Positions 16,351 to 63,395 of a stretch of DNA of 64,000 bases are shown here, piece after piece. The stretch is taken from NCBI RefSeq assembly GCF_048771995.1, contig NC_133063.1, positions 26,306,810-26,370,809 on the forward strand, read 5' to 3'. A model generated the notes under the pieces. The model did no database searches, had not been told where the DNA came from, and was given only the letters and a program-made list of their open reading frames with translations. How positions within the stretch are numbered: the first letter of the stretch is position 1; each line of letters opens with the position of its first letter. The stretch is from Taeniopygia guttata (lineage: Eukaryota > Chordata > Aves > Passeriformes > Estrildidae). The translations under genes were made by a program, and so were the position numbers.

Positions 16351-19300
16351 GAGCGGAAGCTTGAGGAAATGCATTCCTTTTCCAAATGTATCTTGCCAGT
16401 TTCCCCTGAGTATCAGGACTGAGAGATCAGAGATGTCATGCTCTGGTGACGAGAAATAGCTTCTCCAAGGCAAGTGGCAATTTCCTCTCTCTCCTTCATT
16501 CATGATATGAAGTAATTTGAATGTAATTGCCTGATTGTTTGTTCACTTAACTTTTTTTTTTTTTATTTCCACTTACAGTTTCTACAGTAGATTATTGTGA
16601 ACAGAGGCGTGTGAACAAAGACATTTTCCTAAGCTTATTCATCTCCAATATCCAAGATCTCCTTAACTTCATCCATGTCCCTTTCTTATCTGCTGAAAAC
16701 TGTTTTGTGTTAATTGGTGTCCTACAGTGTTAAATAGTTCTCAGCTGGACAGCTGCTATTCCAGCAAGCTGTCTGCCTGGACCTCTCCCACAAAGGTCAT
16801 CATCCAGCCTTGTTGTCATAGCACCAGCATGTTGACCTTTTTTTTTCTTATTCATGTGTATACTCGGGATGTCCTATCTAGTTCTGTGGACAAAGATTTT
16901 TGCCTACAACATGATTCACTGAAGATAAATATGAATGTGTCATAGGTCTGTTCTGAGGAAATCACCTCCTTATGAGTTCTCTTAACAAGATCATAAAAGC
17001 CATTTTCCTGTTCAATGCTTCATTGCCCTTTTTGTAATTATTAGGACAAAAATATAAATTGTGTAGTGTAAACGAAGTCTGGCAAAAAAGGGAGAATCCA
17101 TGTTTAAAATTAGGGCCACAGACAATATTCTGTATGTATGTATAAATATTTGCCTAAACACTTTCACTTCTGAGATCTCATCTGTGATAAGAAGCTGAGA
17201 GAAGCAGCCATGCAACTGTAATGTCATGTTTCATTGCAAATTGAAAAAATAAACAAGTCTGGACTTAGTCAGAGTTACTGCTAGCACCAGCTGCTGTGAC
17301 CTCCTACTAAAACAGGAGTGACACACTAGTTTTTCAGATTCTGATGTTTACAATTGAGTCAATACATAGTTGGTTTCACACTAGTATTGAATTACCAAAT
17401 AATTAAATTTCAAAGAGAAAGTATGCAAGCAAAAACCAGTCAATGCCAACAGTTTTCAGCAACTGTTTAATTTCAAACATCCTTTAAAGGTCAGATTAAG
17501 AGAAAGTCAGATGAGCTGACAGAATACTTTAGAGTTGCTTCAGATCTGGAAGCAACATTAAGACACTTATTAAGCTTCTGTATTTTGGGTTTTCTCCATG
17601 CAGATCTTTTTTTCCAGCTGTAAGTTTTCCCATATGGAAAAGGAGGCTGTCGAAGTCTGCTTAGGGGATGCACATGCAGAAGTTTATTATCTCTTTCATG
17701 TGCCTGTTGTATCGCATAAATATAAGCATATCTGCATCTCATTTTTCAGATAATGAAAAGGAATGCTCAGATAGGTCCCAAAAAAGAGGGCTTCAGGCAA
17801 CAGGTGATGCAATTTCTTAGTGCTGGAAGGTTCCCCCTTGATGTAGGTGGAGAAAGAACAACATAGACAAGGAACCAACATAAATAAAAAAGTTAAAGCT
17901 CATTCCACTAAGGAATTATAATAATTGTCCCTTTGCTCCCAGTGCTTTTTAAATCTTCTCCTACAAAAACTTGCAATGAGTATCTGGAACAGGTAATTTT
18001 TAACAAAAGAGCATCAGACAGGTTAAACATATTAAAGTAGCAGCAGTTAAGAGGAGGTGAACTTTATTTACAGAACTGGGCAAGGTCTGGAGAGAAAAAG
18101 ATAAATTAGACATATCAATGCATAAGAAATGTTGGTTATTTTCTAGGCTGCTACAAGACCCTTGTTTAAAAGCAGGCTTCCAAAGTGATTTTGGCTTGGA
18201 AAAAGTATGTAAGAAATTGTGCTAAAGGACTTATTTTCCTGTGGGTTTTTTTGTTGGTTTTTTTTGTTTTGTTTTTTGGGGATTTTTGTCTTGTTTTTTT
18301 TTTGTTATTGTTGTAGTAGTGCATCTCTCGGCTACACTGAAGAAGAAATACTTGTGTTTTATGAAGTTCTGTGCAATTTCTGCAGCTATATTTTCAAAGG
18401 ATTTCATTAAGAAAATGAAAAAAAGCTTTTCCGCATAAATAAATAAATTTAATGAAGTATACAGCTGATAGTCCTGTTACAAAAGAAAAATATCACATTA
18501 TTTATCCCACTGGTAGAGAGAATAACATTTGGTTTACATTAGAAAAACAGAAAGTTTAGAAAACATTTCTTCACACATCTGATAATAATTACTAATGTTG
18601 CTGTGATGATAAATCTTTGGCTGGAGTTTCAAAGTAGATTTACCAACATTTATTTCTTAAAGGGAGCAGCAAGTGCTCTAGTGCTTCCAAGCTTCATTTT
18701 GCTCAGAATCAAACTAGTGGCCCACCAAAACCTGTCTCTTCAAAACCGTCTCTGGAGAATCACAGCAGATTCCATATTCATGTGTTTGGACATTTTACAA
18801 AGTCATTGTGCAAGTTTTGGAATTGTTTTTGTTGTCAGGGAAAGCTGGACCATTTTCCCTCAAGTCTGTGTTTCTGGAGAGTGACCTTCTGATGGGACAG
18901 AAGTTGTGTGATTTCAAGGTTAGTCAAATGCCTGACTTGTCCCAGGAAAGGAGAATAAAAATGCTTCAGAAGAACCAGGTGCTCGGGAGCTGCCCTTTTC
19001 TGTCAAGACATTCCCCTTCTGCAGGTGATTTATTGTATGTTCTGCTTTTTTTTCTTTTTTACTTCCATAGCTGAGAAATATTTATTTTAGATGTTGTTCA
19101 GATTTTCATTCCCTCTGCTTATGGGATTTTGCAAGGCTAAAGCAGATTTCACACTTCCAGAACCTCTCAAAGCCTTGGACTTTGTCCTTTTGGGCTAAGA
19201 GGAATGATTGTGGCAGGACTGTCAGTGTACAGCCCACCCAGGTTTGCTGATCTGCTGGCTGCAGTACTGGCTACAGTAATAAGGAAGGTAGTTTAAACTG

Positions 19301-20336: not shown

Positions 20337-21853
20337 GGGAAAAAAAAAAAAGGGAAGAAAGAAGGCAGGAAGCCAGGCAGGAAGAAACAGAAAGAAAGAG
20401 AGAGAGAAAGATGAAAAAAAGAGAGAGAGAGGAAGTAAAGAAAATAAGAAAAAAAAAAAATGAAAATGAAAATGAAAATGAAAATGAAAATGAAAAGGGA
20501 AAGGAAAATGAAAAGGAAAATGAAAAGGAAAAGGGAAAGGAAAAGGAAAAGGAAAAGGGAAAGGAAAAGGGAAAGGGAAAGGGAAAGGGAAAGGGAAAGG
20601 GAAAGGGAAAGGGAAAGGGAAAGGAAAAGGAAAAGGAAAAGGAAAAGGAAAAGGAAAAGGAAAAGGAAAAGGAAAAGGAAAAGGAAAAGGAAAAGGAAAA
20701 GGAAAAGGAAAAGGAAAAGGAAAAGGAAAAGGAAAAGGAAAAGGAAAAGGAAAAGGAAAAGGAAAAGGAAAAGGAAAAGGAAAAGGAAAAGGAGGGAAGG
20801 GAAGGGAAGGGAAGGGAAGGGAAGGGAAGGGAAGGGAAGGGAAGGGAAGGGAAGGGAAGGGAAGGGAAGGGAAGGGAAGGGAAGGGAAGGGAAGGGAAGG
20901 GAAGGGAAGGGAAGGGAAGGGAAGGGAAGGGAAGGGAAGGGAAGGGAAGGGAAGGGAAGGGAAGGGAAGGGAAGGGAAGGGAAGGGAAGGGAAGGGAAGG
21001 GAAGGGAAGGGAAGGGAAGGGAAGGGAAGGGAAGGGAAGGGAAGGGAAGGGAAGGGAAGGGAAGGGAAGGGAAGGGAAGGGAAGGGAAGGGAAGGGAAGG
21101 GAAGGGAAGGGAAGGGAAGGGAAGGGAAGGGAAGGGAAGGGAAGGGAAGGGAAGGGAAGGGAAGGGAAGGGAAGGGGAGGGAGAGGGGGAGGGGAGGGGA
21201 AGGGGAAGGGGAAGGGAAGGGGAAGGGGAAGGGGAAGGGGAAGGGGAAGGGAAGGGGAAGGGGAAGGGGAAGGGGAAGGGGAAGGGGAAGGGGAAGGGAG
21301 GGGAAGGGGAAGGGGAAGGGGAAGGGGAAGGGGAAGGGAGGGGAAGGGGAAGGGGAAGGGGAAGGGGAAGGGGAAGGGGAAGGGGAAGGGAGGGGAAGGG
21401 GAAGGGGAAGGGGAAGGGAAAGGGAAAGGGAAAGGGAAAGGGAAAGGGAAAGGGAGGGAATAAGAAAAGAAAAAAGAAAGAAAAGAAAAGAAAAGAAAAG
21501 AAAAGAAAAGAAAAGAAAAGAAAAGAAAAGAAAAGAAAAGAAAAGAAAAGAAAAGAAAAGAAAAGAAAAGAAAAGAAAAGAAAAGAAAAGAAAAGAAAAG
21601 AAAAGAAAAGAAAAGAAAAGAAAAGAAAAGAAAAGAAAAGAAAAGAAAAGAAAAGAAAAGAAAAGAAAAGAAAAGAAAAGAAAAGAAAAGAAAAGAAAAG
21701 AAAAGAAAAGAAAAGAAAAGAAAAGAAAAGAAAAGAAAAGAAAAGAAAAGAAAAGAAAAGAAAAGAAAAGAAAAGAAAAGAAAAGAAAAGAAAAGAAAAG
21801 AAAAGAAAAGAAAAGAAAAGAAAAGAAAAGAAAAGAAAAGAAAAGAAAAGAAA
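20337..21853. repeat. 1.5-kb polypurine satellite (compound microsatellite)
   Basis: The + strand is almost pure purine for about 1.5 kb. Its parts in order are: mixed GAAA/GGAA (20,337-20,460); (AAAATG)n (20,456-20,500); mixed GGAAAA/GGGAAA (20,500-20,621); (GGAAAA)n, about 28 copies (20,622-20,793); (GGGAA)n, about 76 copies (20,794-21,174); (GGGGAA)n with shorter-unit interruptions (21,175-21,415); (GGGAAA)n (21,416-21,460); (GAAAA)n, about 75 copies (21,480-21,853). The 350-, 472- and 581-codon open frames here are stop-free only because the repeat contains no stop codon. Array length in an assembly may be compressed or wrong. Confidence 0.97.
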
Positions 21854-41591: not shown

Positions 41592-41745
41592 AATAGAATA
41601 GAATAGAATAGAATAGAATAGAATAGAATAGAATAGAATAGAATAGAATAGAATAGAATAGAATAGAATAGAATAGAATAGAATAGAATAGAATAGAATA
41701 GAATAGAATAGAATAGAATAGAATAGAATAGAATAGAATAGAATA
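41592..41745. repeat. (AATAG)n pentanucleotide microsatellite
   Basis: About 30 perfect copies of the 5-bp unit with no visible interruption. Such purity suggests recent expansion and likely length polymorphism. Confidence 0.97.
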
Positions 41746-53934: not shown

Positions 53935-54740
53935 TACACGCATTTACGGAGTCACAGGACTGCGGCCACGCTTTGAAGCAGAGACCGGGGAGTTCCCAGC
54001 GGAGACCAGGGCGCTGCGGCCGCCTTCGTCTCCCACCCAGGGCTGCGAGACGCAGGGCGAGAAGAAAGAGAGGAAAGGGAGAGATCCAAGAGGAGAACAG
54101 GGCGGGAACCCACTCAAGCGGACAGACACCCACTGATGACTAAGCTGCTCTGGCTGGTTCCCCCCTCCGCCGGCCAGCGAGGCGCGTTGTCCCGCAGCAG
54201 CCTTCCAGGGCTTCCCTCATGACTCATGCCGCAGGGAGCATTCCCCGAAAACGAGCACGCCCCCGGCCGGGGCTTCCGCAGAGGCTCCCGAGGCACTTTT
54301 GAAACACTTCAGCAGGACCAGGAAACAGCTGGTGCCCAGTTTGGCCGGAGAAAGGCTCCGGGGAATGAGGGAGGGAGCGGGACCATGCCTCCTTTAGCCC
54401 GGCACCCTGGTCGCCAGTGCCCGCAGCAGACTGGCCCCCGACGTCCCTCTCACACCGCCACCCTGTGCCCAGGGCAACCTGTCTTTTCTCGTCCTGAACA
54501 TCCCGATACCCAGCGCCCGGGGCAGCCAGTCCCGCGACGTCCTCCGCGTCCCGGTCCCCACTGCCCTGTTAGCCAGGCTGTCCCCACGGCCGAGCAGCTG
54601 CTCCTCGCCTGCGCTCCCCGCAGCCTAAGCAAGCGAAGGGACTCCCCCGGGGAAAGGGGTTTGTAAAATAAATCGTTCGCCTTCGAGAGAAAAAAAAACC
54701 CGGAACTGTAGAGGGGGGATGGAGGAACGACCACTATGCT
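53935..54740. promoter_or_regulatory. CpG-island-like block without an assigned gene
   Basis: GC content and CpG density rise abruptly (for example 'CTGCGGCCGCCTTCGTC', 'GCCGGCCAGCGAGGCGCG', 'GGGACGT/CCGCGACGT' words) in an otherwise CpG-poor desert. Open frames up to 146 codons on both strands are expected in GC-rich DNA and have no recognisable domains. The block lies about 0.5-1.3 kb upstream of the TSLP start codon. It could be a TSLP promoter/5' UTR, an alternative first exon, or the promoter of a divergent noncoding transcript. Confidence 0.6.
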
Positions 54741-55238
54741 CCAGTTACTCTCGCACTAGCGTGTTAAAATGATGCACTGGAGATGTCCCTGCAGCCTCAG
54801 TGTGGAGGGTATGCATGCCTACCCCCAGGCAGACCCTCGGCAGGTGTCCCGAAGTATTTTTTCTCGCCTTCAAGACAAAGTCGGTTTCACTGCAACAGTC
54901 CCCGCTGAAGTTTCACCCCACGTGTTTATGGGGAGGGCTACTCACACTTGTTTCAAGCAAGATTGTCTGTTTCAAAGCCTTTGTGTTTTCTTTTGTTGTT
55001 GGGGTTTGGATGATGCCTTTGATTATTAATTCGTTATTCCGGTTTTATTTTCGAATCAGTGACACAACCTCAAGACTGAGTAATAATTATTTACAGTTCT
55101 GGAAAGAGGTGAAAGAGACGTCCAAATGAGCCCCGGTTATGGAATTGGAAACCTTTATTTCCGTAGGCGTACAGGTACATATATGAAGCCAGCAACGATC
55201 TGAAGCCCAGGAGGAGAAAAACAACGTGTAAAGACACC

Positions 55239-55254
55239 ATGGATAATTACAACG
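55239..55254 (+). CDS. TSLP: TSLP coding exon 1 (start of signal peptide)
   Basis: ATG in an excellent start context (ACACCATGG) encodes MDNYN plus the first base of the next codon. The donor is G|GTAAAC, phase 1. A weak TATA-like word (ACATATATGA) lies about 55-60 bp upstream, suggesting a short 5' leader, but this is not proven. Confidence 0.7.
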
Positions 55255-56903
55255 GTAAACAACCGGTTTCTCTAGTGCTTCTGAAGCACGAGCATCCCTC
55301 TCTTCAGCTGTTTTTCATGCCTTGTCACGTCACATAGTGGTGCAGGATAATTAACCTTTGGCTTTTTCTCACGCAGCCCTTTGTAGCTTGATCATCTTTC
55401 TTCAGATCGCCTTCTTACCGCGGGGGTTCACCTACAATTTCAGCCTCTGTAACCACGGCAAGATACAAGAGGATCTACTAAACGTTTTGGATGCAGACAC
55501 AACCTTTACACAAGAGGTTGGTGCTTTCTCTGGTGGCATCAGAGGGAAACTGTCGGGATGGCACTGCCTTCACGTTTTTACCCTTGACCACTGGCAGCTA
55601 CTTTCTGAAAATCTCGGTTAGCAAGCCGGGAATTAGCTAGCTTAGTAAACCGGTACCTGTGAAACAGGACCTTGAAGTTATGTCCAGCTCTCCTCCGGCG
55701 ACCTTCCTAAAATGTGCTTCGCTGAAGCTGGGACTGGCAGGGACGGAGAGCAGGAGCCCGAGCGGCCGCTGCCAGAGCTCTACCCGACCCTTCCCAGCGC
55801 CTTGCAGACCCGTAGGACTGAAAGTCCCTTGTTATAGAGTGCTTCACCGACGCTGAAGATGGTGTCACGGTTGCAAAGGTGATAAGTGGTTTAGAAGCTA
55901 CGCGGAGGGTTCACACGCGCAGCCGGCCCTGAGCTCAAAGACCAGGCAGTGTTTTTCGGGGAAAGCAGCCCTGCCGCTGGCTCGGGCATCGCAGCCTGGA
56001 GCTGCCTAGCGCAGCCCAGCAGAGGCTGCCCCGCACGGCCGCCGCCGGACTCCCGCAGCTGCCCACACCCTGCGAGGCCCCGACGGGGCGGGGTGCCGAG
56101 ACGGGAGGGATGTCGTCAGCAGGGTGCCCGATACAAGCTGGCAGACGGCGAAGGCGACCCCGTGGGACGTGGCTTTAACACGCATTCCCTTTGTTGTTTC
56201 CTTCCAGGAGCTACAACTCGATTTTCACACCTGCGAGGACGCGCCCTCCGAGCCGGCGGGCAAGCAGCTGTCCGAGGTTCGCCCCGGAGCGCACCCTTCC
56301 CGGCGGCTAGGTGGCATTCCCTTTCCAAAAAAAAAAAAAAAAAAAAAAGAAAAGGGAAGAGGGCGGCAAGAAAGGGAGGAAGGGGTATAAGGGAATGAGG
56401 GAAAGGTAAGGGGAAGAAGGAGTAGGAGGGGAGGACGGGAAAAGAGAGGGGGAGAGGAAAGTGAGGAAGAGGGAAAGAAGGGAAAGCGGACAGAATGGGG
56501 CAAGCGTGAGGAGCTTTATTATATCTTTGGAGTGGCGGATGGGCAGCCTCTTTTTAGGGATGCATGGGGAGGCGCTGAAGGGAAAAGAAGTTAAGGATCG
56601 TGATCGGCCGTCTGCTCGCAGGAATCCAGGCGGGCGGAGCGAGCGGGCCGGCTGCTGGAATGCCTCCTGGAGCGGGCGCGGGGATGCGGGGAGCGGCCCG
56701 AGCTGTGGCGCGTCACTCGGTCCGTCCTGAAGCACCATTGCCCCGGCTTCTGCGCCTCACCGGAGGGTACTGGGACAGCGCAGCGGGGCAGCCCCGGAGA
56801 CAGCGCCGGGGGCGCCGCCGGGACCTCAAGCCCGGTCCCGTGCGACAAGAGCAAATCCCGGGAGCTGGTGGCGGTGTGGAGAAGCTACAACAACTTAGGA
56901 TAG
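55239..56903 (+). CDS. TSLP: Predicted bird thymic stromal lymphopoietin (TSLP), four coding exons
   Basis: I join 55,239-55,254, 55,377-55,516, 56,208-56,276 and 56,622-56,903, giving 168 aa (human TSLP is 159). TSLP is a secreted short-chain four-helix cytokine that signals through CRLF2 and IL7R. Residues 8-24 form a hydrophobic signal peptide (LCSLIIFLQIAFLPRG core). The mature start YNFSLC resembles mammalian YDFTNC and carries a sequon at N26. Cys30 and Cys115 (in HHCPGF) match the disulfide joining helix A to the C-terminal part. Cys61 follows FHT as the mammalian Cys follows NTVS. Cys89 or Cys97 and Cys149 can form the third pair. Helix D ends VWRSYNNLG, like the human LWRRFN end. The gene lies just upstream of WDR36 on the same strand, as in mammals. 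Weak points: the donors after exons 2 and 3 are GTTGGT and GTTCGC, and exon 3 is short and GC-rich. Identity is by synteny, cysteine pattern and length; no search was run. A pseudogene is possible but there is no internal stop. Confidence 0.8.
55377..55516 (+). CDS. TSLP: TSLP coding exon 2 (signal peptide and helix A)
   Basis: The acceptor is CTTTTTCTCACGCAG. The exon encodes the rest of the signal peptide and helix A through TTFTQE. The donor would be GAG|GTTGGT at phase 0, which has T at +3 and is weak. Without splicing, the frame stays open only until a stop at 55,619-55,621. Confidence 0.72.
56208..56276 (+). CDS. TSLP: TSLP coding exon 3 (A/B loop)
   Basis: A strong acceptor (TTTGTTGTTTCCTTCCAG) opens a 23-codon exon containing FHTCEDAP. 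The proposed donor GAG|GTTCGC keeps phase 0 but is non-optimal. Reading on instead runs into a poly(A) tract (56,327-56,348) and a stop at about 56,390. The 3' boundary is the least certain point of the model. Confidence 0.55.
56622..56903 (+). CDS. TSLP: TSLP coding exon 4 (helices B-D and stop)
   Basis: The acceptor CCGTCTGCTCGCAG is followed by 93 codons and a TAG, all open in phase 0. The exon holds RLLECLLERARGC (helix B-like), LWRVTRSVLKHHCPGF (helix C-like and the CPG motif), a Gly/Ser/Ala-rich loop of about 25 residues, then PCDKSKSRELVAVWRSYNN (helix D). The frame has no ATG of its own, so ORF finders that need an ATG miss it. Possible poly(A) signals AATAAA are at 57,218-57,223 and 57,243-57,248. 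Confidence 0.8.
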   Translation, partial: ESRRAERAGRLLECLLERARGCGERPELWRVTRSVLKHHCPGFCASPEGTGTAQRGSPGDSAGGAAGTSSPVPCDKSKSRELVAVWRSYNNLG

Positions 56904-57236
56904 GTGGCCTGGGGGTGGCGCGGCTTTGCATTTTGCGTCCCCCGCCGGACTTTACTTGCATTGCCAGCCGTGCAGTCATAGCAACGGAGTCATCCTGCGG
57001 GTTGCTATGGGTTATTTTTAATATCCATAATTTATAAAAAAAAAAAAAAAACAAACACCACATACAAAACAAACACTACTACCACCACCACAAAAAGCAG
57101 ACACCTCGGGAAGTTCAGAGGCTCCTGATGCGGGTGTTTCGCGGGATGTGCCATCGGAGGTGAGCTCACCAACCGGGCCTGGTGCGTTGCGAGGGAAAAG
57201 GGGATAACGAAACGGAGAATAAAAGGGGATACAAAA

Positions 57237-57461
57237 ATGAAGAATAAAAGGAGAGGAAAAAAAAAAAAACCCCAACAACAACAGCAAAACAACACGCAGT
57301 CGCGGCTGCGGGGACTGTTCGCGGGGCGGGGCGGGGCGGGGCGGGCACGGCGGGGCGGGGCGGGGCGGGGCGGGCACGGCGGGGCGGGCACGGCGGGGCG
57401 GCGGAAGCGGGCGGGCGGGCGCTTCCTGCGGGCGGGCGCGGCCGCGGACACGTGCGGAGCG
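57237..57461 (+). promoter_or_regulatory. WDR36 core promoter / GC-box array
   Basis: Direct tandem GGGGC units at about 57,323-57,400, with CACGGCG interruptions, form repeated Sp1/KLF-type GC boxes and several possible G-quadruplexes on the + strand. There is no TATA box, as is usual for housekeeping genes. The WDR36 frame is open upstream as far as an ATG at 57,237, but this includes the A-rich and GGGGC repeats. I take it as 5' flank or 5' UTR and not as coding. Confidence 0.75.
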
Positions 57462-57608
57462 ATGGCGCGGGAGGGCGCGGGGTTGTTCGCCGCGTTCCGG
57501 GTGCTCGGCCGCTTCAGCGGGCACGTCCCGCACGTCCTGCGCTATCACGGCCGCCACCGCGAATTCTACCTGGCCGCCGCCGTCGGGCGCAGCGTCCACA
57601 CCTACAAT
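57462..57608 (+). CDS. WDR36: WDR36 exon 1
   Basis: 49 codons from an ATG with G at +4 (GAGCGATGG) to TACAAT. The donor is AAT|GTGAGT, phase 0. Very GC-rich. A possible longer N-terminus in the same frame exists (from 57,237) but is unlikely. Confidence 0.93.
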
Positions 57609-60600
57609 GTGAGTACGCGGCGGCCCGGTCCCCGCTCCTTTTTCCTGGCCTCCTTCCCGCTCGCACCGGCCGTGGGGAGGCCGGGGCCGTGCAGGGAGAT
57701 CCGCCTCTTCCTCCCTTCCTTCTCCGCCCTCGCCGTCCTGATGCGGGAGCGTATGCGGGGCTGCGGCGCCCCGGAGCCGCTCCTCTGCAGCCGGCGGTGA
57801 CCGGGAGGGAGGGAGGGAAAGAGGGATGCTGCCGGCTGAACAAGCCGGGAATGAGCTTGTTCAGCCATGTGAGCAGCGCTAGCCGATACGGCACAACCCA
57901 TCCGCCGGGAGTGCCCAGGCACTGAAGCTTTTCTTTCATTATAAGATCAGTTTAAGCTTACCTGCTCTGGTTTAGCGTTTGAGGGTTGCGTTTTAGGGGC
58001 GGAGGGCAGTCAGATCCTATTAGAACTCCTGTATGAAAATGGGTAAGCATAGTTGAGTTCAGCAAGATGAAAGCCTGTGATACGGACTCGGATTTTGCAG
58101 TGTGGAATCATAAACCCCTTAAGGTGTATGGCTTTTAAGGAGATCCCAGACCAACCTCCCCTGCCAAACCAGGGTCACCTAGGGCAGGTTACAAGAGGAA
58201 CGTGTCTAGGTGGGTTTGGAACGCCTCCAAAGAGGGAGACTCAGTGACTTCCCTGGGTTCAGTCAAAGCATTTTCACGGTACAGGAAACACTGAGCTGAG
58301 TACAGTGAGCGCCTGAGTGCAGACATCAGGGATATTCCTGTGCTTCTGTGGCAGCTTTTAGCGTTCACTCCTGGCTGTTTTCTTCACAGCCTTTGAAGCA
58401 GAGTAGTGATCATCACTGGGCAGAGATGCTTAGATGCTTGCAACTAAAGCAGAATCTCTGGGAACAGAGATAAAATTAGAATATGCGGTGGTTGTAGTGA
58501 AAATAAGGTAGGAGCAGAGATTGTGGGGAAACAAAGTTACCCAAGCTCCTCAGGGTGTCTTAACATGTCTTTGGTTTCCTGTGAATTAGGGTAAAATATG
58601 TCAGGAAGCACAACTTACTACTGGTGAGTCTTTTGGCAAATGCATTGTCCCATTCCTTTTGACCTACTGTCTGTGTGTTTTTCTGTAGACAGTGTTCTAA
58701 ACTGGGATGAATAATCTTCCTGGTTTGTGAAGTATCAAATTCATTGTTTGATCTAGGTTAATTCCTAGAGTTTTAAATTTTTTTTATACCTAATTTGTTG
58801 CAACCAATCACTAAAAATGTCTTTTTTTCCATTTTCATTGCAGCTGAAGAAACTTGGTATTGTTGCTGTGAGTAAGTACTCATAAATTGTTCATTCCTCT
58901 TATTTTGTGGGTGTTTTTATTAAACATGTCCAACATCTGCACTTCATTTTCAACTAAAAACAAGAAAATAAATTATGCTTACTAATACTTACACTTAATA
59001 TATTAAAAGGATCTCAGAAATCTAAAATACCAGTTTGAAAATAAGACTGCTGTTGAAACTGGAATTTAGTTTTATTAGAAAACTAAATTAAAACTAAATA
59101 TTTTGAACTTTCCGTCCTTACCATCTTGTTCTTCCAAAAAACACCTCTAAGCCATAAGGATTGCACAGTGAATAAAGCTCAATTGTTAATTTATTGAATT
59201 AATTTCAGATCCCTTTTTTGGTTGTTTTTGTGATTATTAGAAGACTATTTTAGGAGGAAAATAACTACATTAAGAAAATAAATGCAGATGCCTTCAGGGA
59301 GTGTTAAAAGTTGATTGTACTGGTGCATACAAAGGATATGAATTGATGGCTTGACGTTTACTTGGCCTTTGGTGGCAGAGAACTCTGGGTGTCAGCAGCA
59401 GGGCCGATGTTCTTCAGCACCATCCCCAGTAGCCTGGGTGAGGCAGTGTGCACTGCTAGGATAAGCTTGCAGAGGATGCTGTTTTTGGAGGAGTAATGGC
59501 AAAGTTTCAGTCCAGGGAGCTTGTAGCAAAACACGAAGCCTGGGTCAACAGGAGCCTTGCAAAGTCCGGCGAGGACAAGTGCAGAATCCTGCTGCACCTG
59601 GGACAGAGCAAGCTGGGAACTGACTCCTCATGGCATCCTGCTGGGGAGAAGGTGGGCTGTGCTGGTGCCAGGCTGAATGTTGACCAAAAACACGGTAACT
59701 GTGAGTAAGGCAGGCTGTGTATTGGGCCTCCCTCCAGCAGATCAGGCAAAGCTGTTCTTCCCCTGCACCTCATGCTGGTGGGGCCATGCCTGGACTGCAG
59801 AACTCTGTTATTGTGGTCCTGTCCCTTCCACAGCTCCTCTTTCTCCCTCAGGAGGCATGCTGAGGAGCAGGAGAATGCTGCGGCCTACAGCAAGCAGTAT
59901 GAAAAGAGACATTGGGGGAAATGGATCCTCTTAGTGCTAAGAAGGGCAAGATTCAGAGTGGCCCAGAGGGTGTCTGAAGGACAGCAGGATGGTGAGGCTG
60001 GTTTGTGCTGATGGTGGTAGTGGTAGACAGAGCAGCAAGGCGCAGCTCCCACAGATTGCAGCCTGAGAGGGTCACAGTGGAGAGCAGAAAAATGTCCTGA
60101 GGGGGTAACTGTGGTACAGTGTAGACCTTGAGGAGAACTTGTTCTTCAGAAGTGCTCAAGACTCAGCTGGGCACAGCTGCAGCTAACCCAGTCTAGTACT
60201 GGTGATAAACTTTGTGACAATCTGGTGGCATTTCCAAAGATCCCTTTCACTTGACACTTACATGATTCAGAGGGATGCACTCTGTCTTGAAAACTAGGGG
60301 CTTTACTTCTGTCTACTTTTGTTTTGTAAAAACAAAAATTTTAGAGAGCTGTCATATACAAAGTATTTTCTATTAATAGAACATCTGTAAATTTGAGAAT
60401 GAATGTCACAAACAGGACTAGATTTAGATTATCAGCTACGCATTTTTAAAGTGGTAAACATTAATTTTGTTTTCATCTTGCAAAATCACAAAAGCATTGC
60501 ATATTCTGTTCTACAGTAGGCTGCATCTTCTTACATTTGTAATCATCTAAGCTTTTTGAGAAATTGGGATATTTACGTACAAAACTGTGATTGAAAAGAA

Positions 60601-63395
60601 ATGAATGCTATGCTTCTATTCTTATGGTGCTGTTGATGCTTTGAACTTCTTAATTTGGGTCTGCCTAAAACTGTCTTAGCCTAAGCAGCCTTACATACAG
60701 CTCCTGTGGAGTACCAGATGTCTGTAACCTGGTTGTGAGCCTAAGTCACTTCAGAGGTGCTGTGGAAAGATATGTTCAAACAAATGAAACCTCACAGAGT
60801 GCAACCTTCTTTTATGTTCGTATTTTAGTTCTTCCTTGTGAAGCTGTGCTGCAGTACAGTAGAGAGTGCAGTTTTCTTCATGCCTGCTAACAATTCACAG
60901 TACAAAACACCTTTGTGGGAAAGGCTGCTGTGTGACCATGCTAGTTTGTATCATAGGTGTGCTCCCAGTGATTTTTGACCTGGTGTTTCTCTGCAGAAGT
61001 ATAAAGTGCTTTGGTAATTTACATTTTTATATTTCCTTGGATTGAGAGTATTATTCCCTATAGTATTTTTTTTTTTTAATTTTTCTACTATTTGGGACCA
61101 CATCAGTAATTTCTCAGTGTGGTCTGGAACTTGATTCTTTTACCTTTGGGCTAGTCAAGTAACTGTCCCGATATTAGATATTCTTTCTGACCCAATTATG
61201 AGGTAGGGAACGAGGAATGAGATGTGTTCTTAGAGCATTAAATTTTCAGTGTGATCAAGAGATAGGTGCAGGAGTGGGTCACTGACTCCCAGGCCTGCAG
61301 AATAACTTAACCTAATAAGCATTGCTAATGCTGAGACTTTGATTTATCATCTGTGTTTTCAGCCCTCACAAAGCGAGCATGTACCTTTCCTTATAGAGAT
61401 AGCTCACTAATATTAAGTGTTTCTCAAAATAACCACCTTATGTTCTACCAATCTTATGTTACTTATGGTGTTGTTACTGGTGTAATGTTTTGTAGTAATA
61501 TTTGCATTCTTCTGAAATGTGCACATTTCTCTAAAATTCAACATGATGTTTGAACAGAAGTCTTTTTTTGTGGGTCACCATGCCAAAGAAATACACTGTC
61601 AAGCTTTCTCTCTTACTAGGAACCTGAAACTCATTTAACTTTACTTTTGTTTGATCAACAGGTAACACTTTGCCACAAGACATCACATGTTTGGCAGCAG
61701 ATCGCATGCTGATATTTGCTTCATATGACAACATTCTCCATGCTCTTGCAAGGAACAAAGAGGTTTCTATTAACTTACTTATTACTCAGTAGTACAAAAC
61801 AGTTGTGTAGTGTCTGTGGTATCAAGGAAGTTAATTTTCTATGCATGCCTATTTTTGTAGCTGTGTGGTACCTTCAGTTTTAGGGAAACAAGCCATAAAA
61901 TGAGGAGTAAAAAGCTTAAACTGGAAGAATGTAAAAGCAAATTAAATCATGCTGAACTGTGTTTTGCATATTAATTAGAATAATTAAGTAGCTGTGTAAA
62001 GATTTAAAAAATCATTAATTCACGTAAGCTAAATTAATTGGAAATAAATAATTAAAAATACTTAGATAGCATACTTTTTGCAAACAGTTTTAAATATCAG
62101 ATATAATTATCTCTCTTGAATTTCAAGTTGTGTGGCCTTTCCATGAATTTTATTTGAACTTGCTGCTGACATCTGTTAGGTGTCCTCAGGTATTATGTTA
62201 ACGTGATACTCTACCTTAAAAGCTTATTAGAAGCATTTCTATTTTGAAATTATAGGTGGTTCATACCTATGAAGGCCACAAGGCAAAGATACACCTTCTA
62301 CAGCCTTTTGGTGATCATGTCATCTCTGTGGATGTTGATAATGTTCTTATTGTTTGGAATATACAGTCAGAAGGTGAGAGATTTTATTTTTGGTGCTGCT
62401 TTATAGGATAGCACTGTTAGACATTCAGTAATTTAAGAAAAGGGGTTTTTTTTAAATGCACACATTCAGAAGTTTATTCTAAAAAAAGAAAATCCTTAAA
62501 TGATTGTGCTACTTGGTGATCTGAAGTCCTAATCCTGCAGTAATGTTTCATGAATGGATACTGTACCATGTACAGAGGCCCAGTAAGATTCTATGTAGGT
62601 GTAAAAGAGAGAATGATTATATGAAAATTACATTTTAGTGTTCCATTTTTTTGTAAAGGCTGTGATAGAGCAGCTTTGGAATTATTTCTAATTTTTGTAA
62701 TTCTGTGATATCTCCCAGACTGGGTATGATTAAATTCTAATGAATAATCTTTTTATGCGTGTCAGCATCTTCTCATGCCATTGTCAAGTACTTTGTGAAA
62801 TTGTACTTCAATGACCCAAACATTTTTCATTAGAGGGCATTCATTGGTGTGACCAGTGTTATTCTCTGTGTGCTGGTTGTCAAAAGTGTCTGTAACCGGA
62901 CTTTAGAGATTTGGAGTTGCTATAGCAAACAAAAGGCATGCTGCTCAGATGGGGTGTTTTGCTCAGGCAAAGCAGGAATCCCTCAGAAGGATATAAATCA
63001 GATAAAGATATGGTGTTGCGCGTGTTGTTGTACTGGATAGACTTTCAGGGAAAAGATACACCTTCAAGCCAACAGATTTTTACGTTGTACAGAAGTTTAG
63101 CCTCTTCTGTTACACATTAGCTAATCCTTTAATGTAAGAATAAACCATAGCAGGATTTGAAGAGTTAAAGCTCTATCCTGCTTTTTACATTTGCAAAGGG
63201 ATGGCAAACCTGCAGATTTGTAGGGGTAGCTACACTAACACTTTTTCTTGCTGTTTTTGCAGAAGAATATCTTCGGATAGATTTTGATAAAGCCACATTT
63301 GCAGTTTCTGCACTTCTGCATCCCAGCACCTATCTGAATAAAATTCTCCTTGGGAGTGAACAAGGAACCTTGCAGCTTTGGAATATAAGATCCAA
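57462..63395 (+). CDS. WDR36: WD repeat-containing protein 36, 5' part (exons 1-5; runs off the window)
   Basis: I join 57,462-57,608, 58,844-58,871, 61,662-61,762, 62,256-62,373 and 63,263-63,395, all with consistent phases (0, 1, 0, 1, 2). The product is a WD40-repeat protein of the U3 snoRNP/small-subunit processome, which acts in the nucleolus in 18S rRNA maturation (yeast Utp21); human WDR36 has been linked to primary open-angle glaucoma. The predicted start reads MAREGAGLFAAFRVLGRFSG and continues with VPHVLRYHGR and SVHTYN, close to human FAGFRALGLFS...IPHVVRF...SFHTYD. Later exons contain VSNTLPQDITCLAADRML, EGHKAKIHLLQPFGDHVISV and HPSTYLNKILLGSEQG with LQLWNIRSN, which follow the human protein almost residue for residue and supply the first WD repeats. 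The remaining exons lie beyond base 64,000. Confidence 0.97.
58103..58265 (-). repeat. CR1 LINE fragment in WDR36 intron 1, antisense
   Basis: Antisense CR1 blocks: 'TGCCAAACCAGGGTCACCTAG', 'GCAGGTTACAAGAGGAACGTG' and 'GTTTGGAACGCCTCCAAAG'. Confidence 0.82.
58844..58871 (+). CDS. WDR36: WDR36 exon 2 (28-nt microexon)
   Basis: The acceptor CATTTTCATTGCAG is followed by codons LKKLGIVAV and one base. The donor A|GTAAGT is a perfect consensus, phase 1. It matches human VQKLSLVAVS. An overlapping upstream donor (GCT|GTGAGT) exists but would break the frame with exon 3. Confidence 0.93.
59480..59760 (+). repeat. CR1-like fragment in WDR36 intron 2
   Basis: A block reading 'GGACAAGTGCAGAATCCTGC' and 'TGCACCTGGGACAGAGCAAG' matches CR1 ORF2/3' wording in sense orientation. 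The left edge and the sequence up to about 60,200 are GC-richer than the intron average but unassigned. Confidence 0.6.
59761..60215. other. Unassigned GC-richer segment in WDR36 intron 2
   Basis: It probably continues the repeat to its left, because base composition changes back to AT-rich at about 60,220. I cannot name it and see no exon in it. Confidence 0.4.
61662..61762 (+). CDS. WDR36: WDR36 exon 3
   Basis: The acceptor is TGTTTGATCAACAG. The exon encodes SNTLPQDITCLAADRML and IFASYDNILHALARNKE. The donor is GAG|GTTTCT, phase 0. It aligns with human NSVPQDICCMAAD...FARNKE. Confidence 0.95.
62256..62373 (+). CDS. WDR36: WDR36 exon 4
   Basis: The acceptor is TTTGAAATTATAG. The exon encodes VVHTYEGHKAKIHLLQPF and GDHVISVDVDNVLIVWNIQSE. 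It contains the first complete WD-type ending (IVWNI). The donor is G|GTGAGA, phase 1. Confidence 0.96.
63263..63395 (+). CDS. WDR36: WDR36 exon 5
   Basis: The acceptor is GCTGTTTTTGCAG. The exon encodes EYLRIDFDKATFAVSALLHP, STYLNKILLGSEQG and TLQLWNIRS. The donor is AA|GTAAGA, phase 2. Confidence 0.96.

Follow-up and report, generated by a model that had tools for sequence, protein, structure and literature searches.

A Candidate TSLP Gene Between SLC25A46 and WDR36 in a Bird Genome

Gene Model and Genomic Context

The stretch of DNA analysed here, hereafter the window, measures 64,000 nt (C40:26306810-26370809) and belongs to a genome of 1.14 Gb distributed over 41 contigs, of which C40 has a length of 82.2 Mb. 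Both the size of the genome and the genes in it fit a bird. Along the plus strand of this contig, the following order was found: (i) SLC25A46, which lies upstream of the window; (ii) a candidate gene of four exons, which starts at C40:26362048; and (iii) WDR36 (Table 1). WDR36 and SLC25A46 were located with human query sequences. In human, the order is SLC25A46, TSLP and WDR36, on one strand. The initial annotation had placed the candidate beside WDR36 on the same strand, which is the place of TSLP in mammals; the WDR36 exons found downstream and the SLC25A46 gene found upstream agree with that placement.

Table 1. Features at the locus; positions refer to the window unless a contig is given.
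Feature	Position	Strand	Remarks
SLC25A46	C40:26287308-26298818	+	8 matched pieces; precedes the candidate by about 63 kb
Candidate exon 1, coding part	55239-55254	+	16 nt; MDNYN+G; donor ACG/GTAAAC, percentile 92.3
Candidate exon 2	55377-55516	+	140 nt; hydrophobic core of a presumed signal peptide, followed by YNFSLC and a presumed helix A
Candidate exon 3	56208-56276	+	69 nt; 23 aa; phase 0/0; contains Cys61 and, presumably, the last part of the AB stretch
Candidate exon 4	56622-56903	+	282 nt; presumed helices B, C and D; CPGF; Cys149; VWRSYN; stop
Two AATAAA signals	57218 and 57243 (57218-57248)	+	possible 3' end of the transcript, by position only
WDR36, first coding exon	57468-57611	+	tblastn, 50% over 48 aa, E 1e-10
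WDR36, further matches	61664-61765, 62256-62378, 63262-63393	+	tblastn; 4 matched WDR36 pieces in total

Once spliced, the four exons of the candidate give 507 nt, which encode 168 aa and a stop codon, with no internal stop. All three introns are bordered by GT and AG. The proposal that four exon pieces with compatible phases join into a protein of this length was therefore confirmed as regards the joins, the intron borders and the open frame. Splice sites were scored with a simple frequency matrix and ranked against the 4,726 AG and 3,284 GT sites present on the plus strand of the window. In order along the gene, the acceptors reached percentiles 98.6, 99.9 and 96.7 and the donors 92.3, 91.5 and 82.1, the third donor (GAG/gttcgc) being weak. 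The model is least secure at exon 1: between 54.3 and 55.33 kb, seven possible first exons of phase 1 have a donor that scores above 2, among which the proposed one is alone in having a purine at -3 together with a G at +4. Skipping of exon 3 was considered as well; it keeps the frame, but lowers the score against the TSLP profile from 16.5 to 14.6 bits, and was rejected.

The strongest hydrophobic run of the protein is at its start and covers 11 residues from residue 9 (mean 2.55), while windows from residue 31 onward reach 0.75 at most. When the whole genome was searched with the candidate, three of its exons matched (E 1.7e-57, 1.0e-23 and 2.2e-7) and the next of the nine matches had an E value of 0.785. 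As far as this search shows, the candidate is single-copy in the 1.14-Gb genome.

Other features of the window can be listed as follows: (i) a CpG-rich interval at 54000-58000, which spans the candidate and the start of WDR36 and whose observed/expected ratio per kb ranges from 0.68 to 1.07, compared with 0.32 and 0.2 for the two flanking kb; (ii) about 1.4 kb of tandem repeats at 20457-21853 that contain only purines on one strand (AAAAGG, AGGGA, AAGAA) and give rise to long spurious ORFs; and (iii) a perfect AATAG tandem array of 30.8 copies at 41592-41745. No Rfam family matched the window at the gathering threshold, and seven of the longest non-repeat ORFs in positions 1-54000 matched no Pfam family. 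Finally, the size of C40 and the presence on it of WDR36 and IL7R suggest, by comparison with the chicken map, that this contig is the Z chromosome. If so, females would carry one copy of the candidate and males two.

Coding Signal and Base Composition

The GC content of the first, second and third codon positions is 0.60/0.50/0.76 for the whole coding sequence of the candidate and 0.53/0.32/0.67 for exons 1-3. When exons 2-4 were joined in frame, the dependence of the bases on codon position was matched by only 1 of 5,000 shuffles, and it was reached in 0.5% of 1,071 segments of equal length taken from positions 1-54000 of the window. Taken singly, exon 4 has a weaker signal (199 of 5,000 shuffles; 5.5% of 1,075 segments) and exon 2 has no significant one, 733 of 5,000 shuffles reaching its value. 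An open frame of the length of exon 4 is, in GC-rich DNA, no strong evidence by itself. The joined frame of the candidate does carry a coding signal.

This signal bears on a first alternative explanation, according to which the locus holds a TSLP pseudogene or decaying remnant, that is, orthologous DNA which no longer encodes a working cytokine in this bird. Such decay would fit the weakness of the third donor, the uncertainty of exon 1 and the partly low-complexity sequence of exon 4, but it is at odds with 507 nt free of stops and frameshifts, with the GT and AG borders kept at all three introns, with a codon-position signal that, over the joined frame, just 1 of 5,000 shuffles reaches, and with the retention of both receptor genes (see below); hence, we regard it as unlikely.

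Similarity to TSLP in Family and Structure Databases

A search of Pfam with the 168-aa protein returned TSLP (PF15216) as the sole family up to an E value of 10 (E 0.025). The score of 15 bits lies 12 bits below the curated cut-off of 27, which is a threshold set by the curators and not a biological feature; for comparison, human TSLP scores 232.5 and mouse TSLP 197.8 against the same family. Because the place of the gene and its specific similarity to TSLP agree, the score below the cut-off is treated here as a detection limit. When the protein was divided into pieces, none of the three single exons searched matched a Pfam family, nor did exons 1-3 joined together.

Among the 177,635 sequences of the PDB, mouse TSLP (4nn5) was the best match; its E value is 0.0058 over the whole sequence, and its best single stretch by itself has 0.26. 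Up to E 10 there was just one further match, an unrelated TRIM5 fusion (E 1.4). Neither IL-7 nor any cytokine other than TSLP was found among the Pfam and PDB matches up to E 10. A search of the whole genome with PF15216, exon by exon, gave no match at E 0.001; this result is uninformative, because all 14 control genomes were also without a match. Relatives were sought in viral contigs too, where one stretch fitted a pattern and no relative was found.

Cytokines of the IL-7/TSLP branch have a common fold but little common sequence. A second alternative explanation is that a different short-chain cytokine of this branch, be it IL-7-like or another helical one, occupies this place. A TSLP match below the Pfam cut-off, and an alignment in which just four TSLP cysteines out of six have a partner, would be compatible with it; nevertheless, the lack of an IL-7 or further cytokine match in Pfam and PDB up to E 10, and neighbours that are those of TSLP, make this reading quite improbable and favour TSLP itself.

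Only exon 4 was folded, as a single sequence. The resulting model (pLDDT 50.6, pTM 0.34) has helices at residues 77-95, 101-114 and 151-165, with a long unstructured stretch that precedes the last of them. The model agrees with cytokine helices B, C and D but proves nothing. A Foldseek search with this low-confidence model of exon 4 returned a single match, to a non-cytokine, at E 6.8.

Profile Searches and Shuffle Tests

The exons of the candidate were originally picked with TSLP in mind. Independently of that choice, a profile built solely from human and mouse TSLP was compared with all 2,754 ORFs of the window in six frames (stop to stop, 15 aa or longer). In this search, the ORF of exon 4 ranked first (E 0.21) and that of exon 2 ranked second (E 0.59), followed in third place by an ORF located elsewhere in the window (E 1.5). 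The two top-ranking ORFs are on the same strand, in the right order and about 1 kb apart. As these scores are not significant singly, we infer that it is the adjacency of the two ORFs beside WDR36 that carries the weight.

Single TSLP sequences were also compared with the window by means of tblastn. With mouse TSLP, exon 4 was the best match (E 0.003) and exon 2 appeared with an E value of 1.9. With human TSLP, the best place was not the candidate but positions 18975-19097 of the minus strand (E 0.11), which contain an internal stop; among the 30 matches listed, none of the 13 human TSLP rows falls in the candidate exons.

The mature protein scores 17.3 bits against the TSLP profile and the reversed protein -1.6. 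From the mature protein, 20,000 composition-preserving shuffles were made; the best of the 16,108 listed scored 9.8 bits.

Two profile scans that allow introns were carried out. The settings of the first one let an intron add score: in positions 54001-57500, none of 100 shuffles reached the score of the candidate, and over the whole plus strand the candidate was outscored by six other places. In the repeat scan, the intron score was lowered, a choice made after the outcome of the first scan, and two settings were used. Across the two strands, the top place was exon 2 with both settings, and in neither setting did any of 300 DNA shuffles reach its score. The margin is small (23.9 bits versus 22.3 for the best shuffle) and the flat setting has 22.4 bits at position 58084. 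The best path of the repeat scan consists of exon 2 alone, without introns, and therefore the joins were not probed by it.

The ORF ranking and the shuffles also make it very improbable that the open frames of this CpG-rich pocket arose by chance and were joined only because TSLP was being looked for: stops are indeed scarce in GC-rich DNA, the single ORF scores (E 0.21 and 0.59) are not significant and human TSLP alone misses the place, but a search free of any exon choice gives the two ORFs the top two ranks among 2,754, the best listed protein shuffle stays far below the real score, and none of the 300 DNA shuffles reaches the top place, albeit by a small margin.

Receptor Genes

TSLP is an alarm signal of allergy-type immunity, and its receptor is composed of two chains, CRLF2 and IL7R. 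For CRLF2, matches were found on contig C1 to (i) the D1 domain, at C1:81881425 (E 0.0014), one of three matches over the cut-off out of 21, the other two being on C6; and (ii) the D2 domain, in two exons at C1:81883151 (E 1.6e-12) and C1:81884012 (E 3.4e-13), which are two of the three matches over the cut-off out of six. The ORF with the D1 match on C1 hits two CRLF2 Pfam families, both above their cut-offs. When the C1 peptides were joined and compared with known structures, human CRLF2 was matched at 1.4e-27, compared with 2.6e-8 at best for the common gamma chain; CRLF2 accounts for the best four of the 17 matches. Domain matches of the CRLF2 type are also present at C6:8007847-8011677 and C6:18803037-18803836, some of them over the cut-off, and these probably correspond to other class I cytokine receptors.

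For IL7R, two exons were located, at C40:49228450 and C40:49229810, which are the only two of eight matches over the cut-off. By these matches, the genes of both receptor chains, CRLF2 and IL7R, are present in the genome of the candidate. IL7R (C40:49228450-49229989) and the candidate ligand gene share a contig, about 23 Mb apart.

Interpretation

Based on its TSLP-specific sequence similarity, its place and the presence of the receptor genes, the candidate is very probably the bird orthologue of TSLP. This reading is well supported, not by a single decisive score but by several lines that agree. It had already been put forward in the initial annotation, and the following results speak for it: (i) TSLP is the sole Pfam family; (ii) TSLP is the best match in the PDB; (iii) the top two ORFs of the profile search are those of the candidate; (iv) the neighbours are those of TSLP; and (v) CRLF2 and IL7R are both present.

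The proposed model starts with a TSLP gene that would have been retained at its ancestral amniote place, the interval between SLC25A46 and WDR36, and whose product is predicted to be secreted and to be a cytokine of the IL-7/TSLP branch with a short-chain four-helix fold. By analogy with mammals, stressed epithelium would secrete a mature protein of about 144 aa, which would bind CRLF2 together with IL7R; engagement of the receptor would then switch on the JAK-STAT pathway of dendritic cells and innate lymphoid cells. What the analysis shows is the gene model, a similarity to TSLP that is weak but specific, the neighbours, the single copy and the two receptor genes; the transcription, secretion, fold, receptor binding and TSLP-like function of the candidate are predictions. 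In general terms, birds probably keep a working TSLP-CRLF2-IL7R axis in which the ligand has been strongly altered.

Relation to the Published Record

Chicken has both IL5 and IL13. A passage of a 2021 survey of interleukin evolution dates these two genes to monotremes, has TSLP appear first in monotremes as well, and traces CRLF2 back to ray-finned fish (PMC8226699). On account of the two chicken genes, the absences from birds that this passage conveys are not firm. In fish, according to passages of the respective papers, the genes of TSLP, IL-25 and IL-33 are so far undetected (PMC7658486), no zebrafish TSLP has been identified (PMC9138301) and a zebrafish TSLP receptor has been reported (PMC1963337). 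CRLF2 would appear, then, to be without a named ligand outside mammals. TSLP is described, in a passage of a further paper, as highly divergent, and the wallaby gene was identified there with a profile (PMC3173455). No report of a bird TSLP was found among the open-licence PMC papers listed in text searches, and the phrases "chicken TSLP", "avian TSLP" and four similar ones are absent from those papers; an annotation in sequence databases may already exist.

If the candidate is indeed TSLP, several consequences would follow. The origin of TSLP would move from early mammals back to the amniote ancestor that birds and mammals share, if not further, and bird CRLF2 would gain its ligand, whose gene would share a chromosome with IL7R. 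Furthermore, it would suggest that the gap in the TSLP record is due in part to the rapid divergence of the sequence and the high GC content of the exons. A direct test would also be possible, by applying the 168-aa protein to cells with bird CRLF2 and IL7R.

Comparison With Mammalian TSLP and IL-7

IL-7 belongs to the same cytokine branch as TSLP, with which it has the receptor chain IL7R in common. The candidate differs from it in the database searches, where neither Pfam nor the PDB gave an IL-7 match at E values up to 10. The known mammalian references for TSLP are the human (8zeu/5j11) and mouse (4nn5) proteins and the Pfam family PF15216. The candidate is identical to mouse TSLP at 34 of 106 aligned residues (32%) and to human TSLP at 26 of 115 (23%), while human and mouse TSLP are identical to each other at 49 of 116; 18 columns are invariant in all three.

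Some differences from mammalian TSLP can be pointed out. Regarding the locus, the coding start of WDR36 is about 0.6 kb downstream of the candidate, whereas in human it is about 14 kb downstream of TSLP. Regarding the protein, mammalian TSLP has six cysteines which form three disulphides, and the mature candidate has seven. Four of the six TSLP cysteines have a counterpart in the same column (Cys30, Cys89, Cys97 and Cys115). Judging from the alignment, Cys61 could stand in for the second cysteine of TSLP and Cys149 for the sixth, each with an offset of three columns; Cys119 is extra. There are 27 residues between Cys61 and Cys89, but only 5 between the second and third cysteines of human TSLP. 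Likewise, the stretch before Cys149 is of low complexity and rich in Gly, Ser, Ala and Pro, while human TSLP has a basic cluster there.

On the other hand, the candidate and mammalian TSLP are both short proteins with a hydrophobic start, and they have three motifs in common: (i) at the start of the mature protein, Y[DN]F[ST]xC, which reads YDFTNC in human, YNFSNC in mouse and YNFSLC in the candidate; (ii) CPG[YF], which is CPGY in human and mouse and CPGF in the candidate; and (iii) near the C-terminus, after a cysteine, W[RY][RS][FY], found within LWRRF in human, LWYSF in mouse and VWRSY in the candidate.
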